Positions 13,164 to 60,545 of a stretch of DNA of 64,000 bases are shown here, piece after piece (position 1 is the first letter of the stretch; each line of letters opens with the position of its first letter). Under the pieces are notes generated by a model. The model had not been told where the DNA came from. It searched no databases and saw nothing but the letters and a program-made list of their open reading frames with translations. Position numbers and translations under genes: made by a program. This DNA comes from Chloroflexota bacterium (GTDB taxonomy: Bacteria > Chloroflexota > Anaerolineae > UBA4142): positions 62,001-126,000 of the forward strand of contig JACRBM010000054.1 in NCBI GenBank assembly GCA_016219275.1. The letters are read 5' to 3'.

Positions 13164-13345
13164 ACACGTACTGCGACAGTTGTTGACGCGCTGATGCCGG
13201 CGCGGTCAGGGTTAAGACCAGCCCACTCAACGGATGCGTTGATCTCTAGTTTGTCCACACGCAACCTGGGACTGGACGCTTGTACCTAGAGGGAGCAAAT
13301 AGCGTAACCGACCGTTGGTTATTCCAATCGGTCGGTTTTTGTTTT
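13164..13345 (+). ncRNA. Candidate structured RNA (leader or small RNA), class unknown
   Basis: About 180 nt run from the predicted start of a consensus promoter to an intrinsic terminator, with no credible open reading frame. Visible pairings include GGTC-GACC (around 13204-13219), a long-range GTTGACGC with GCGTTGAT, and CTCTAG with CTAGAG enclosing GTCC-GGAC (about 13241-13291). The terminator is followed within 40 nt by a strong ribosome binding site, so it may be a regulatory leader for the HExxH lipoprotein gene, or a free small RNA of 6S-like size. I could not match it to a known family. Confidence 0.45.
13306..13345 (+). terminator. Intrinsic terminator ahead of the secreted HExxH protein gene
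   Basis: AACCGACCGTTGG (13306-13318) pairs with CCAATCGGTCGGTT (13324-13337) with one bulged base and a 5-nt loop, followed by TTTTTGTTTT. It ends the RNA that starts near 13164. Confidence 0.82.
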
Positions 13346-50665: not shown

Positions 50666-51505
50666 TTACGGATTCTTGATTCGATCCACTTCTTCCCACT
50701 GCACCCAGGCTTCCGCAAACGCCGGCTCCATATACTTGTCCGAAAATAGGTACACCGCGCCGGTGGACGCCACTACTTTTTTGATATCGTGATATTCTTC
50801 GCGGCGCAACAAACTCTCGACGATCACTTGCATTTGACCGGCGTCAATCCGAAACAAGTGTTCGTAAAACAGCGCGACCTTGGTCGGACGCGGATAGATG
50901 CGCGATTCGTCGCGCACGGTTGACACGATGAGCGAGTACGGATCGTTTGCCTCCACACGCGCGAGAATCGTCGCATAGTTCTCCGTCATATCACGATCGC
51001 TGTAGAGATAGGGAATCCCCGTGGGACCAACGATCTGCCGAATATCCGCATAGCGCGGGTCGCCGAGCATACTCGCCGCTAATTCGCGCACCCGGCTTGG
51101 CTCCATGGTCGGGAAGAGCGCGTTGAGCGATTCGACTTCGGTGAGACGGATAGCATCGCGCGTATCTTCGCGTACTCGACTCGCAATTTGATCCTGCGTT
51201 TCTTCACGGACGATTTTCTCGTTCGCCACGTCCATCGGAAACGCGTTCTCCGAATACAAGAACGCCGCGCCGCTCGGCGAAAAGATCACTTTGATGTCCG
51301 CATACTCGTCGAGTTTGATCAACTCGCCCAACGTACCGACGATTTGTTCCGGCGCGCGATATGGAAATAGCGCGCCCAGGTCTTCGATATGCATCGGACG
51401 CGCGTGGGTCTGCGAATCCGCTCTAACTTTGTTGGCAATCGCGAGATAATCTTCATTCACCGACATCGTTGGCGCAATCACCGGCATGGCAACCATCTCT
51501 TCCAT
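50666..51505 (-). CDS. Protein of three tandem repeats, third gene of the oxidoreductase operon
   Basis: 279 residues from ATG 51505, chosen for the GGAG upstream. It contains three related units of about 80 residues, each starting V-R-x-D/E-S/T and ending in a strand such as IKVIFSPSGAAFLYSE, IRQIVGPTGIPYLYSD, IKKVVASTGAVYLFSD. Each unit also has an L-F-P or L-F-R helix. No cysteine or membrane segment is seen, so it is a soluble cytoplasmic protein. It comes 78 bp after the oxidoreductase stop. Function unknown; a helical chaperone or regulator of the enzyme is possible. Confidence 0.72.
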   Translation of the reverse strand: MEEMVAMPVIAPTMSVNEDYLAIANKVRADSQTHARPMHIEDLGALFPYRAPEQIVGTLGELIKLDEYADIKVIFSPSGAAFLYSENAFPMDVANEKIVREETQDQIASRVREDTRDAIRLTEVESLNALFPTMEPSRVRELAASMLGDPRYADIRQIVGPTGIPYLYSDRDMTENYATILARVEANDPYSLIVSTVRDESRIYPRPTKVALFYEHLFRIDAGQMQVIVESLLRREEYHDIKKVVASTGAVYLFSDKYMEPAFAEAWVQWEEVDRIKNP

Positions 51506-51583
51506 TTTTTCATCACTCCATCGTATCATCATCGGTGCTGGGCGGAGAGAGCATCCTAGCCCAGCACCGTATCGTCTCGCGGT

Positions 51584-53674
51584 TTACGCGATCAAACCTT
51601 GCTTGGCTAATTCATCGGCAACGTACTTGAGTCCGGCTTTTTCAAGCGTCGCGCGCGTCGGCATGCCGGTCGCCTTGTCCCAGCCCATCTCTTCGTAGAA
51701 CAAGTCTTTGGCGAGTTCGATGTCTGCGCGATCCATCCGGCTGTGACCAGCCGTGAACGGTTGTTTATCCGCCGGATAGTCAAAGACCCACTTGTTCGCC
51801 AAATCGTGCTTGTTGCGCATATCTTTCTCGTTCATAAAGCGCGCGGTCAGCGCGCGGAACAAGTGGAGAATCCGCATCCCGGTCGCCTCGATTTCTTCGC
51901 GGCTGATCTTTTCGCCGGTCACGTGCGACAGCGCCTTGGCTTCCATCGCGACATCGCCGCGATACTTGCGATCCTTGCGCGGTGACGCCCACACCGGCAG
52001 CGTCCAGTTGCACGCGGTCAGCGAGTTGTGCAGTTCGAGATAGATCAGCGACATCTTGGTGAAGACCGCCTTGCCCTTGTTCATCGGCTTGTAGTTGTTG
52101 TTCGCGTCAATCGCATCCGGCGAACCGAACAACTCCGCTCCGATTTCTTTCTGCAACGCCAAGGGTAGACCATTCGCCAAATAGTTGCTGTGCGTGTGGT
52201 TTTGCGAATCGCGATTGTACATCATGTTGATCAGCGTGCCGACTTGTCCGCCATTTTCGCTCGAGTGGTGTTTGGCGTGCGCGTCCTTCCAGCAACTCGA
52301 CTCGTACGTTTGATGGTATTCGGCAATCTCAGACCATTTCTTTTCCAAGAATGCTGGACCATCCGCGAACAACTTGCCCAGTTCGCCTTGCTTGAACGTG
52401 ATGCGTTTCATAATGTCGAGCAGGAATGCTGGGTCGCCCGCATCCAACAGTTTCCACGGAATGCTGTCGTACTCTTTCGGGTCCAACTTGGCTTTCAGAA
52501 TGCCCTTGCGGTACGCGTAGAGCAGATCGCGCGGGAACTGTCCATAGTCGTTCCACAAACCGTAATCATCCGCGAGCGCACTGCCCAACTGCGACGCTTC
52601 GATCGCGGTTTCCGTGCCGCTCGTGATATTGTCAAAGAACCCGCGCCCGAACGAGTTGCCCACACAGGTGTTGCCGTTGAAACGCGACACACCGTACTTG
52701 GTTTCGAGCGCCGGGATATCGGTGTACACGTGGCAACGAATCGGGCACGAGTAGCAACCGCCGGAACGAACATGGTGTCGCTGACCAGGACCATCGCCGT
52801 GATCCAAAACTCCCTTGTGCGTGCGATAGCCGATGCGATTCAAATCATCCGCGCTGCATTCGCCGGTTTCGACTGGCGGATTTGCGGCGCCCCAGTATTG
52901 CCCCTTCTGCGCGTTCCAGCGCGTCGCGCCATAGTACTCCGCCCAGGGTTGCGGCGTCGTCGGCACGACGCCTTGGTTGTTCGCGCCAAGCAACGAAAGG
53001 TATTCGTTGACGAATTCTTTCCATACTTTTTTGTCCGCCGCTATGGCAACCGACCCGGTGCCTTTGACCCCAATTGCCTTGAGATTCTTGGAACCCAGGA
53101 CGCTGCCCACGCCGCCTGCAGAGTGCGAACGATTGCACAGCACGCACGAGACGCGCACGAGATTTTCGCCCGCTTGACCAATCGCCGCGACCTGGACATC
53201 GGAACCAACTTCATTGCTGATTTCTTCCGTCGCGCGGAAGATGCCGTTGCCCCAGAGATTCTTGGCGTCGCGAATCTCAACCTTGTCATCATTGATGTAA
53301 ATCCACACGGGCTTGGGCGCTTTGCCTTGCACGATCACCGAGTCCCAACCGGCAAATTTCAACTCAGCGCCCCAGTGTCCACCCATGTGTCCCGTGCCGG
53401 GCAATTCATTGATGTTGACGGGAAACAACGTCGTAATCGAAACACGACCCGAGAGCGGTGAGCCGGAACCGGTCAACGGACCCACGCCAAAAATGATCCG
53501 GTTTTCCGGATCCCACGCCTTGGTGCCGGGCTTGACTTCATCCCACAAAATTTTGTAACCCAGCCCGGTGCCGCCGAGAAAGTCCTTGTATTTCGCGGTA
53601 TCTTCCGAACTGATCTTGCCGGTGGAAAGATCAATCCGTAGAATCTTGCCGCGATATCCACCTATTGCTGCCAT
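51584..53674 (-). CDS. Aldehyde:ferredoxin oxidoreductase-family enzyme (tungsten/molybdopterin)
   Basis: 696 residues, longer than classic AOR (about 605) and near the YdhV/BamB-like length. Domain 1 opens with GGYRGKILRIDLSTGKI; ELKFAGWDSVIVQGKAP and GGVGSVLGSKNLKAIGVKG bind the pterin. The [4Fe-4S] ligands are GGCYSCPIRC (C307, C310, C314) and C555 in LTACNWTLP. It should oxidise an aldehyde, or reduce an acid, with ferredoxin. It has no signal peptide, whereas the partner gene product upstream has one. Confidence 0.93.
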   Translation of the reverse strand: MAAIGGYRGKILRIDLSTGKISSEDTAKYKDFLGGTGLGYKILWDEVKPGTKAWDPENRIIFGVGPLTGSGSPLSGRVSITTLFPVNINELPGTGHMGGHWGAELKFAGWDSVIVQGKAPKPVWIYINDDKVEIRDAKNLWGNGIFRATEEISNEVGSDVQVAAIGQAGENLVRVSCVLCNRSHSAGGVGSVLGSKNLKAIGVKGTGSVAIAADKKVWKEFVNEYLSLLGANNQGVVPTTPQPWAEYYGATRWNAQKGQYWGAANPPVETGECSADDLNRIGYRTHKGVLDHGDGPGQRHHVRSGGCYSCPIRCHVYTDIPALETKYGVSRFNGNTCVGNSFGRGFFDNITSGTETAIEASQLGSALADDYGLWNDYGQFPRDLLYAYRKGILKAKLDPKEYDSIPWKLLDAGDPAFLLDIMKRITFKQGELGKLFADGPAFLEKKWSEIAEYHQTYESSCWKDAHAKHHSSENGGQVGTLINMMYNRDSQNHTHSNYLANGLPLALQKEIGAELFGSPDAIDANNNYKPMNKGKAVFTKMSLIYLELHNSLTACNWTLPVWASPRKDRKYRGDVAMEAKALSHVTGEKISREEIEATGMRILHLFRALTARFMNEKDMRNKHDLANKWVFDYPADKQPFTAGHSRMDRADIELAKDLFYEEMGWDKATGMPTRATLEKAGLKYVADELAKQGLIA

Positions 53675-53718: not shown

Positions 53719-54483
53719 TTACTTGTGGCACGAACCGCATGTGCTCGACACACTCTGCGGCGACGCCACATAGCCCGGTATCGTCCAGCGCGGTGGAATG
53801 TCCTTGGTACGATCTTGCCACGGCACATAGCGGAGCGCGCTGTTTGGGCACGCCTTGACGCATTCAGGATCGCCATTGCACAAGTGACACTTGGTTGATT
53901 TTTTCGCTTGTTCGTCGAACGCCAGCATTGCCCAGGGGCACGCGGCTTGGCACAAGCGACAACCGGTGCACTTGTCCACGTTGATCACACGCGCGTTAGT
54001 CGGCGCGACGATTTCAATCGCGCCATTCGGGCACGCGCTCATGCACGGCACCGGGTGTGGACACTGGCGACACGTATCTTGAACCAGCAAAAAGTTTCCG
54101 AAATGCCCTTCGCCGCGCCGATAACCCAACTGTGCGCCGCCTGGACCAAAGTTCAAATTACGCCCAACCTTGACACGCGCAAGCGTCGGCTCATTGCGAC
54201 CATCGTTAAAACTGGTGCAGGCAATCTCGCAACGACGACACCCCGTGCAGCGCGAGGGATCGCCGATCACCATGCCTTTGGAATTCGGACCATATCCTTG
54301 TTCTGCCGGCGAAGCCGCCACGACTTCTGCCGGGAGAAAATACGGCAAAGCAATGCCGAGTGAGCCGATCCCAGCCACGCGGAGAAAATCGCGGCGTGAA
54401 ATCGGCATCTGAATCGCGACGGACAATGGGCTAGCATCACCCAGGGTCACATCGCTGGTGTTTGCTTCTCTTTGATTTTCCAT
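53719..54483 (-). CDS. Tat-exported four-cluster ferredoxin-like subunit with C-terminal CxxCH
   Basis: 254 residues with GGGGGAG upstream of the start. Tat signal ISRRDFLRVAGIGSLGIA near residues 28-45. Four [4Fe-4S] sites: CTGCRRCEIAC (79-89), CRQCPHPVPCMSACP (138-151), CTGCRLCQAACP (172-182) and CHLCNGDPECVKACP (199-212). The C-terminus ends CGSCHK (249-254), a possible c-type haem motif. The gene order with the oxidoreductase is that of the E. coli ydhY-ydhV pair. It would relay electrons between the enzyme and a membrane or periplasmic partner. Confidence 0.9.
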   Translation of the reverse strand: MENQREANTSDVTLGDASPLSVAIQMPISRRDFLRVAGIGSLGIALPYFLPAEVVAASPAEQGYGPNSKGMVIGDPSRCTGCRRCEIACTSFNDGRNEPTLARVKVGRNLNFGPGGAQLGYRRGEGHFGNFLLVQDTCRQCPHPVPCMSACPNGAIEIVAPTNARVINVDKCTGCRLCQAACPWAMLAFDEQAKKSTKCHLCNGDPECVKACPNSALRYVPWQDRTKDIPPRWTIPGYVASPQSVSSTCGSCHK

Positions 54484-54709
54484 TTTCTTCTCCCCCGATC
54501 AATAATGTCTTGCTTGGTCGTTCCAGTTCCTTTCCCAGCACCGCCTCCTCTCTGACTGAGTACGCTTCCTTGCAAAAATAAAAACGCCTTTGCGTTCAAG
54601 CACACAAAAGCGTTCTCCGCTAGAGTAAATCAATCTGCAAAGCCCACTGCCCGCCGAAAGTACACCCTTAATCAGGAAATCAGACGAGACAGATTGTTAC
54701 CCGTACTTT
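54484..54709 (-). promoter_or_regulatory. Long structured leader of the oxidoreductase operon, putative riboswitch or attenuator
   Basis: From the predicted start near 54709 to the ATG is about 225 nt. In transcript order CAAAGTAC (54710-54703), CAATCTG (54696-54690), GTACTTT (54663-54657) and CAGATTG (54637-54631) occur, so the first pairs with the third and the second with the fourth. These are interleaved, giving a pseudoknot or two exclusive states. A terminator follows (54572-54614) before the ribosome binding site. I cannot match it to a named class. The other half of the 372-bp gap holds the tyrS promoter. Confidence 0.6.
54572..54614 (-). terminator. Intrinsic terminator inside the oxidoreductase leader
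   Basis: In the transcript AACGCTTTTGTG (54614-54603) pairs with CGCAAAGGCGTT (54594-54583) over 12 bp with two G-U pairs and an 8-nt loop, followed by TTTATTTTT. It lies upstream of the gene it would control. Confidence 0.85.
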
Positions 54710-54715
54710 GTAATT

Positions 54716-54744
54716 ATTATAACAAACACGCGGCATACTGTCAA
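54716..54744 (-). promoter_or_regulatory. Perfect consensus promoter of the oxidoreductase operon
   Basis: TTGACA (54744-54739) and TATAAT (54721-54716) with a 17-nt spacer, the full sigma-70 consensus. Initiation is expected to be strong, so control by the leader is likely. Confidence 0.9.
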
Positions 54745-54797
54745 TTTTTTCACAATCGCGGAGATTGAGACAATTTTGCATTCACGCTGAACCGTTT

Positions 54798-54855: not shown

Positions 54856-56037
54856 ATGTCCACGCTCTCACTCGATCATATTTTGAAACGCGGCATCGCC
54901 GAAATCATCAGCGAGGAAGGTTTGCGTAAACGTCTCGCCGCCGGCAAACCATTGCGTATGAAAATGGGCTTCGATCCATCCAAGCCGGATTTGCATGTCG
55001 GTCACGCGGTCGGCATGCGAAAACTGCGCCAACTTCAAGACTTGGGGCATACCGTCGTGCTCATCGTCGGCGATTGGACCGCGCAAATTGGCGATCCTTC
55101 CGGGCGCGATGAATCGCGCACGATGTTGACGCACGATCAAGTACAGGTCAACGCGCAAACGTACATGGATCAATTCTTCGTCATTGTGGACCAGAGCAAA
55201 ACCGAAATTCGTTGGCAGAGCGAATGGTTCGGCAAGTTCTCGCTCGCCGATGTGTTCAATCTCACCTCGCGCTTTACGTTCGCGGATATGATGGAACACG
55301 AAACGTTCGACAAGCGCGTCAAAGACGGCAAACCGCTCTCGTTGATGGAATTGATGTACCCGTTGCTCCAAGCGTACGATTCGATCGCGGTTGATGCGGA
55401 TGTCGAGTTCGGCGGGATGGATCAAAAGTTCAACATTTTGCAGGGACGCAAACTGCAAGCGATGCTGGGCAAAACGCCGCAAGAAGTTTTTCTCGTTCCC
55501 TTGCTCGTCGGCACCGATGGACGCAAGATGTCGAAATCGTTTGGCAACACGATTGACGTGCGCGCCGCGCCGAGCGATATGTACGGCAAAGTCATGTCGC
55601 TCGTGGACAATGTGCTCGTCGAGTATTTTAAACTCGTCACCGACGTGCCGGACACTGAGATTGCCGAGATGGCAGACGCGATGGCAAGCGCCAGCGTCAA
55701 CCCGCGCGATTTGAAAATGCGTTTGGCGCGCGAAATCATCGCGCAATTGTACGATGCGAACACCGCGCGCGATGCCGAAGCGGAATTCGTCAAAGTGTTC
55801 CAGCAACGCGAACTACCAAGCGATATGCCGACCTTCGCCATGCCTGGCGCGATGCCGATCATTGATTTGCTGGTCGCCGCAAAAACGGTCGAGTCGCGCA
55901 GTGAAGCGCGCCGGCTTGTCGAACAACGCGGCGTGCGTCTCGACGATGTGGTCATCGAAAAGAGTGATGAGCAGATCCCTGCGCAGCCAGCTGTGTTGCG
56001 CGTGGGACGTCGCAAGTTTGTGCGACTGACCGCGTGA
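54856..56037 (+). CDS. tyrS: Tyrosyl-tRNA synthetase
   Basis: 393 residues. The ATP motifs are HVGHAVGMRKL (HIGH-type) and GRKMSKSFGN (KMSKS), with FGFDPSKPDLHVG-type start and GGMDQKFNIL for tyrosine and ATP binding. The C-terminal S4 RNA-binding domain covers about residues 325-390 (ESRSEARRLVEQRGVRLDD). It is of the TyrZ-like, shorter type. It charges tRNA-Tyr in the cytoplasm. Confidence 0.96.
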   Translation: MSTLSLDHILKRGIAEIISEEGLRKRLAAGKPLRMKMGFDPSKPDLHVGHAVGMRKLRQLQDLGHTVVLIVGDWTAQIGDPSGRDESRTMLTHDQVQVNAQTYMDQFFVIVDQSKTEIRWQSEWFGKFSLADVFNLTSRFTFADMMEHETFDKRVKDGKPLSLMELMYPLLQAYDSIAVDADVEFGGMDQKFNILQGRKLQAMLGKTPQEVFLVPLLVGTDGRKMSKSFGNTIDVRAAPSDMYGKVMSLVDNVLVEYFKLVTDVPDTEIAEMADAMASASVNPRDLKMRLAREIIAQLYDANTARDAEAEFVKVFQQRELPSDMPTFAMPGAMPIIDLLVAAKTVESRSEARRLVEQRGVRLDDVVIEKSDEQIPAQPAVLRVGRRKFVRLTA

Positions 56038-59189: not shown

Positions 59190-60449
59190 CTACTGCACCT
59201 CACCCCAATCGAGCATTTGAATCTCGACTGTCTCGCCGGCGCGCACCCGCGCGACATTTTCCGGAATCACCAACAATCCGTTCGCTTTCGACACCGACGT
59301 GAGCACACCCGATCCTTGCTCGCCGGTCGTTCGCGCGATGAAACCCTCGCCACGTTTTTCGACCTGCACGCGAATGTGATTGCGGCGGTCGGACGCATTC
59401 TCCACATCTTCTTGCAAAATCGCGCGCACTGTTGGTCGCGCGAATTTTGTTTTGCCGAGCATCGTCAGAATCGCGGGACGCGCAAACGTTTCGAACGAAA
59501 TGAGCGCGCTGACCGGATTGCCGGGCAATCCCAGCAAAGGCACACTCTTCTTGCCGCGCAGAACACCGAATGCGAGCGGTTTGCCGGGTTTCATCTTGAC
59601 TTGCCAAAAGTGCATCTCGCCTTCCGCGTTCAACACATCCTTCACGATGTCGTAATCGCCGACCGACACGCCCGCGCTCGTGAGAAACAAATCCGCGTCC
59701 GCATCCAACCCCGCGCGAATTTTCGCGGTGAGGTCGGCGATGTTATCGCGCGCGATGCCGAGTTGAATCGGAATGCCGCCCGCGCGCAAAACCGCCGCCG
59801 CGTTCGAGTACTCGTTCGAGTTGCGAATTTTGCCGGGCGCGACCGGCTCGTTGATCGCGACGAGTTCATCGCCGGTCGCAAGAATCGCGACGCGCGGACG
59901 CCGATGCACCGCGACCTGACTTTTGCCGATGGACGCAAGCACGCCGATTTCCGCCGGGCGCACAATCGCGCCGCGCGGCATAACGACCTCACCCGCGCGA
60001 ATATCTTCACCGGCTTGGCGCACATTGTCGCCGCGCTCCGCGCGCTTGAGAATCTCGACGGTCGCGCGTCCCTTGGTTGCCGCGCGACCTTGCACGCCTT
60101 CGGACGTGTCCTCGAATCGCACGACGGTATCCGCGCCGGGCGGCAACGGCGCGCCGGTCATGATCCGCATCGCCGTCCCAGGTTCGACCGCGCGCTCGGC
60201 GAGGTACCCCGCCGCGACATCGCCGATCACGCGCAAGACTGCCGGTTGCTCGCGCGACGCGCGCGCGATATCCTCGGCGCGCATGGCGTAGCCATCCATC
60301 GCCGAATTGTTGAACGGCGGCACATTCATTTCCGCGATCACATCTTCTGCCAATACGCGATCGAGCGCGTCGAGCAAGGCAACGCGTTCCGGTTCGAGCG
60401 GCTGAAAATGTTTGAGAATGTATGCGAGCGCTTCTTCAACTGAAATCAT
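59190..60449 (-). CDS. moeA: Molybdopterin molybdotransferase MoeA
   Basis: 419 residues from ATG 60449, behind AGGGGAA-like purines. ISVEEALAYILKHFQPLEPERVAL, DVIAEMNVPPFNNSAMDGYAMRAEDI and TGAPLPPGADTVVRFED are the MoeA N-terminal blocks; VSVGDYDIVKDVL and GLPGNPVSALISFETF follow, and the C-terminal domain IV is complete. MoeA inserts molybdate, or in tungsten users tungstate, into molybdopterin. It fits the need of the oxidoreductase operon 5 kb away. Confidence 0.95.
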   Translation of the reverse strand: MISVEEALAYILKHFQPLEPERVALLDALDRVLAEDVIAEMNVPPFNNSAMDGYAMRAEDIARASREQPAVLRVIGDVAAGYLAERAVEPGTAMRIMTGAPLPPGADTVVRFEDTSEGVQGRAATKGRATVEILKRAERGDNVRQAGEDIRAGEVVMPRGAIVRPAEIGVLASIGKSQVAVHRRPRVAILATGDELVAINEPVAPGKIRNSNEYSNAAAVLRAGGIPIQLGIARDNIADLTAKIRAGLDADADLFLTSAGVSVGDYDIVKDVLNAEGEMHFWQVKMKPGKPLAFGVLRGKKSVPLLGLPGNPVSALISFETFARPAILTMLGKTKFARPTVRAILQEDVENASDRRNHIRVQVEKRGEGFIARTTGEQGSGVLTSVSKANGLLVIPENVARVRAGETVEIQMLDWGEVQ

Positions 60450-60471
60450 ATTCCCCTTCCGTTCTGAAATT

Positions 60472-60545
60472 GTGAGGCAAGTTGGAAACTTGCCCCACTT
60501 GGTTAGCACATCAAATCAATGAGGCAAGTTAGAAACTTGCCCTAC
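60472..60545. repeat. Tandem palindromic 'gaggcaagtt' repeats
   Basis: GTGAGGCAAGTTGGAAACTTG (60472-60492) and GAGGCAAGTTAGAAACTTGCC (60521-60541) are two short palindromes of the same type as 58328-58389, one running into the stop of the phosphoesterase gene. Confidence 0.7.

Follow-up and report, generated by a model that had tools for sequence, protein, structure and literature searches.

The 64,000-nucleotide window analysed here carries a ferredoxin/aldehyde:ferredoxin oxidoreductase (AOR) operon behind a promoter, a stretch of leader RNA with interleaved pairings, and a terminator, and it raises the question of how such an arrangement controls the operon. The preliminary description had considered a new riboswitch or an attenuator. 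The former is disfavored here, there being no Rfam family and no conserved relative of the leader, while the latter is upheld by the anatomy of the leader and by the repeated presence of a terminator in the leaders of such operons. The leader is best regarded, with a probability of roughly 0.6, as a lineage-specific transcription-attenuation leader of a ydhYVW-type operon in which some condition raises read-through.

The operon itself is as first described. Encoded on the minus strand are a ydhY-like 4Fe-4S ferredoxin with a TAT signal (53719–54483), a ydhV-type AOR (class V WOR) of 696 amino acids (51584–53674; NF007354, 936 bits with a cut-off of 868), and a YdhW-like protein (50666–51532; NF007411, 164.5 bits, below the cut-off of 203). 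The E. coli control genome likewise contains an NF007354 match above cut-off. The ydhY, ydhV, and ydhW genes are common to the window operon and E. coli ydhYVWXUT; however, in E. coli FNR and NarL/P act at the promoter, a difference from the leader terminator of the window. YdhV-type enzymes constitute class V in a 2026 classification, with no function assigned; some are probably Mo enzymes, and the class may depend on Mo instead of W (PMC13328260). The window also harbors a moeA-like molybdopterin biosynthesis gene (59190–60509, minus strand) approximately 5 kb from the operon, and its genome contains 10 AOR-family genes; among named genomes, it is closest to Anaerolineales/Chloroflexi MAGs.

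The promoter, the interleaved helices, the terminator, and the operon all lie on the minus strand, which the preliminary description had left unstated. The promoter conforms fully to the sigma-70 consensus reported earlier (TTGACA-17-TATAAT, 54744–54716; score 12/12) and has an extended −10 element, i.e., TG before the −10. Across 427 kb of the same genome, a similar scan finds only seven promoters with this score. From the sequence, transcription is predicted to start at ~54709 on the minus strand, giving a leader of ~92 nt between promoter and terminator and an RNA of ~130–135 nt up to the terminator. The 5′ end of the predicted transcript, AAAGTAC (54703–54709, minus strand), has two alternative partners: GTACTTT (54663–54657) and GTGCTT (54603–54598), the latter being part of the terminator 5′ half and a candidate antiterminator partner. 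In the second interleaved helix, CAATCTG (54690–54696) is the 5′ strand and CAGATTG (54631–54637) its partner, both on the minus strand. The interleaved pairings noted previously are thus confirmed as two perfect 7-bp helices, although the first base of the strand CAAAGTAC, as originally given, is left unpaired in AAAGTAC/GTACTTT. CAATCTG also falls within a long nested hairpin, P2 (GGGUAACAAUCUG...CAGAUUGAUUUACUC, 54623–54702, minus strand), with a predicted energy of −26 kcal/mol and a z-score of −1.7 to −2.2 relative to shuffles. The terminator with its U-tract was likewise correctly recognized: a 16-pair stem of −20.4 kcal/mol (54617–54580, minus strand) is followed by ATTTTTGC, with the U-rich tail reaching ~54575. 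Approximately 95 nt separate the terminator from ydhY, which starts at 54483 behind a Shine–Dalgarno sequence.

An intrinsic terminator thus stands between the promoter and the first gene; it serves no upstream gene because the neighboring tyrS (54856–56037, plus strand) is divergent from the ydhY operon. In the proposed mechanism, the very strong promoter would start transcription at ~54709, most transcripts would end near 54580, at the terminator, with read-through into ydhY-ydhV-ydhW increased under some condition. The operon is, therefore, probably under premature-termination control. We infer a functioning terminator, regulated read-through, and a lineage-specific regulator, be it a ligand or a factor made of protein or RNA. 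Among the arrays of promoter, leader, and terminator in the part of the genome that was sampled are c-di-GMP-II-GAG and Moco riboswitches as well as the apparent peptide attenuators of metG and cysK, so the layout is one that works in this organism.

Terminators recur in leaders of the same operon type. The ydhYV operon is found in 4 of 396 genomes of the class, with YdhV 77–87% identical, and in all three orthologous operons (genomes G011, G001, and G002) a promoter-like site is followed by a terminator ahead of the genes. G011 has a strong promoter (TTGACA-17-TATACT) and a leader of 146 nt; the promoters of G001 and G002 are weaker, with leaders of 77–93 nt. The G002 leader matches that of another ferredoxin-AOR operon in the genome to which the window belongs (G000:C101) with an E-value of 7e-10, and the conserved terminator leader ATGAYGAGGGTCGCGAAATCTCTCG is common to G000:C101, G001, and G002. 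Among the 396 class genomes, matches with 0 mismatches to its core, ATGAYGAGGGTCGCGAAAT, are confined to these three places. All five ferredoxin-AOR operons of the family that were examined (the window, G011, G001, G002, and G000:C101) therefore carry a leader terminator, falling into three unrelated sequence types, as compared to a gene-oriented terminator at 4 of 60 gene sides in divergent intergenic regions of the window's genome. This enrichment is suggestive, not decisive, because homology makes three of the leaders non-independent and the window case had been chosen beforehand. Together with the anatomy, the recurrence supports the attenuator reading.

The leaders of G000:C101, G001:C94, and G002:C266 resemble that of the window in placing a terminator before ferredoxin and AOR genes in the same family; they differ in being unrelated in sequence, shorter (~75–95 nt), and preceded by histidine kinase/response regulator genes. 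The ATGAYGAGGGTCGCGAAATCTCTCG... leader (L118:4504-4560, L111, and L109) lies between this gene pair and the ferredoxin-AOR operons and has no Rfam match. The pair consists of a histidine kinase and a NarL/LuxR-type response regulator in all three places (checked with Pfam for C101). A small receiver-like ORF is also found between the leader terminator and ydhY in G002 and G001 (L002:997-1490 and L003:1072-1500) and is absent in the window; the G001 ORF has no Pfam match.

Outside the class, leader RNAs of a known family precede the same genes. In the genome collection, 17 further loci encode YdhV relatives with 47–55% identity. A Moco riboswitch scores above its cut-off before ydhY at L057:2746-2906, L058:3076-3237, and L060:1917-2099, and a probable one scores below it at L056:3116-3286 and L050:24-186 (E 0.006 and 0.017). 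These ydhY-ydhV operons belong to Spirochaetes and Halanaerobium, and no paper reporting Moco RNA before ydhY was found. Outside the window, its genome contains a single true Moco riboswitch (G000:C32, 66.2 bits). The window leader is similar to the Moco/Tuco riboswitch (RF01055; PMC2408646) in being a leader RNA before a Mo/W-enzyme operon, some Moco RNAs also having terminators. In contrast, it lacks the GCCTCCC/GGAAAGGAG core, and RF01055 fails to match it at the gathering cut-off or, over 331 bases, at E ≤ 10, although the model does work on orthologous loci and elsewhere in the window's genome. Judged by these model matches, leader-RNA control of a ydhYV operon has precedent and the window leader is not a Moco RNA, as had been suspected.

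The two interleaved helices count in favor of a ligand-binding switch. Among dinucleotide shuffles, 0.3% contain two 7-bp helices of this kind, and none of 1000 contains an interleaved pair; the comparison was made once the feature had already been singled out and so overstates the case. The whole leader folds with a z-score of −4.5. This value is dominated by the terminator, without which the 5′ domain (z −1.7, to −2.2) is only marginally more stable than shuffles. The predicted nested hairpin contains CAATCTG/CAGATTG, lengthened to 14 bp; because this helix uses one of the 7-bp pairings and excludes the other, the two together are incompatible with the predicted fold. The nested hairpin is favored at −26 versus −13 kcal/mol for the interleaved pairing, and forcing AAAGTAC/GTACTTT at 92 nt costs 13 kcal/mol. 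Of the earlier proposal of a pseudoknot or two states, the pairings exist, whereas a simultaneous pseudoknot on the full P2 hairpin is rejected on energy and also, by inference, because its 5′ strand directly abuts the base of P2.

A switch between the transcript 5′ end and the terminator may be considered a candidate in the folding models. In truncated transcripts, the 5′ AAGUAC is predicted to pair with GUGCUU of the terminator 5′ half over 6 bp; however, 64 of 400 shuffled leaders match a pairing of this type, i.e., chance level. A smaller hairpin (AACGC-AAAG-GCGUU) backed by the same U-tract persists in the antiterminated fold; thus, a clean on state is not evident. The 5′ strand of the window leader, like that of the G011 leader, is predicted to be able to close around hairpins by pairing with the 5′ arm of the terminator. 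As shuffles reproduce this in 16% (window) and 39% (G011) of cases, the idea of one structure shared by the three leader types was dropped. Leader-peptide attenuation of the window leader was also rejected for want of a start codon: no ATG occurs within 54710–54617, and the GTG/TTG frames have neither a spaced Shine–Dalgarno sequence nor repeated codons, unlike the metG and cysK leaders.

A new riboswitch class, in which the 5′ domain would bind molybdate/tungstate, the pterin cofactor, or a substrate and two folds would spare or disrupt the terminator, is unlikely. The rarity of the interleaved helices (fewer than 1 in 1000 shuffles), the presence of a terminator in the leader, and the Moco RNAs of orthologous operons argue for it; the 13 kcal/mol penalty of the interleaved state and the z-score of only −1.7 for the 5′ domain argue against it, as does the search for relatives. 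The Rfam and homologous-leader covariance checks that had been suggested returned neither a family nor a relative. At gathering cut-offs, no Rfam family matches the leader, and the best lax scores (PyrR, 17.6 with a cut-off of 54; bglG-cis-reg, 16.4 with a cut-off of 80) are at chance level. BLAST of the leader DNA in 60 related genomes finds the query itself only. A covariance model built from the single sequence of the 5′ domain likewise finds nothing else in the 60 relatives (next best E 0.22) and has no match in 24 ydhYV and neighboring loci. Relatives are lacking even where the ydhYV operon is retained, in three other members of the family, to which the comparison of ydhY leaders within the family is confined, and Rfam finds nothing on the G011, G001, and G002 loci. 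The same type of BLAST search recovers the metG leader in 12 of 14 family genomes, and the method is therefore able to detect a conserved leader RNA. By these searches, the window leader lacks the kind of conserved aptamer that a widespread riboswitch would have. No literature on regulation of ydhY/ydhV by a leader RNA was found.

The promoter and terminator could instead delimit an independent small RNA gene of ~130 nt between tyrS and ydhY, with the operon served by another promoter. The full-consensus promoter, the stable hairpin, and the strong terminator would suit such a gene. However, no second promoter-like site is found on the minus strand between the terminator and ydhY, no RNA homologue was found, which is unusual for a functional small RNA, and terminators recurring before the same operon type point to action in cis, making this distinctly unlikely. 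Quite improbable, too, is that the CAATCT(G) repeats (copies at about −57, +15, and, inverted, +74) are DNA operator sites through which a DNA-binding regulator controls initiation, the terminator only lowering basal expression. In its favor are the CAATCTG/CAGATTG pair within the leader, the inverted repeat CAATC-N5-GATTG just 5′ of the −35 element (54753–54767), a possible protein-binding site, and the kinase/regulator genes preceding the sibling leaders, whose response regulator has no RNA-binding output domain. Nevertheless, the palindrome is weak and near chance (1 match in the window versus 0.2 expected), and no matching regulator gene is adjacent in the window. Very unlikely is a narrowly distributed riboswitch for Mo/W, the pterin cofactor, or an enzyme substrate that would use the two mutually exclusive 7-bp helices and replace the Moco riboswitch of other phyla.

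Under the attenuation reading, the recurrent leader terminators, together with the Moco riboswitches on orthologues, tie expression of class V enzymes to their cofactor or another signal. Were the window leader ligand-responsive, it would represent a new way of sensing Mo/W status, for which the present evidence falls short. The more valuable by-products are the Moco-controlled ydhYV operons, the shared leader of the sibling ferredoxin-AOR operons, and the metG and cysK leaders.

The leader of metG, encoding methionyl-tRNA synthetase (L097:4951-5115, i.e., G000:C40:44951-45115, and L143–L151), is conserved in 12 of 14 family genomes and has no Rfam match. In the ten leaders read, a short ORF ending in MxM with a PSGAP*-like tail is followed by a GGCGCACCG/CGGUGCGCC hairpin and then by a terminator with near-invariant arms. 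This looks like leader-peptide attenuation through Met codons, of which no report was found in the literature, and it is better supported than the ydhY leader of the window. The cysK leader (L103:811-1030, i.e., G000:C40:160811-161030) combines a 12/12 promoter, the ORF MAVKKVDSLESIAFRITCLCPRRRR* (Cys-Leu-Cys), and a terminator, and it is an apparent peptide attenuator with no DNA relative in 60 genomes. A thiolase-like gene also has a promoter and a leader terminator (L093:10823-10703, minus strand), and a c-di-GMP-II-GAG riboswitch with promoter and terminator lies within the window at 13223–13322 on the plus strand (RF03169, 43.5 bits).
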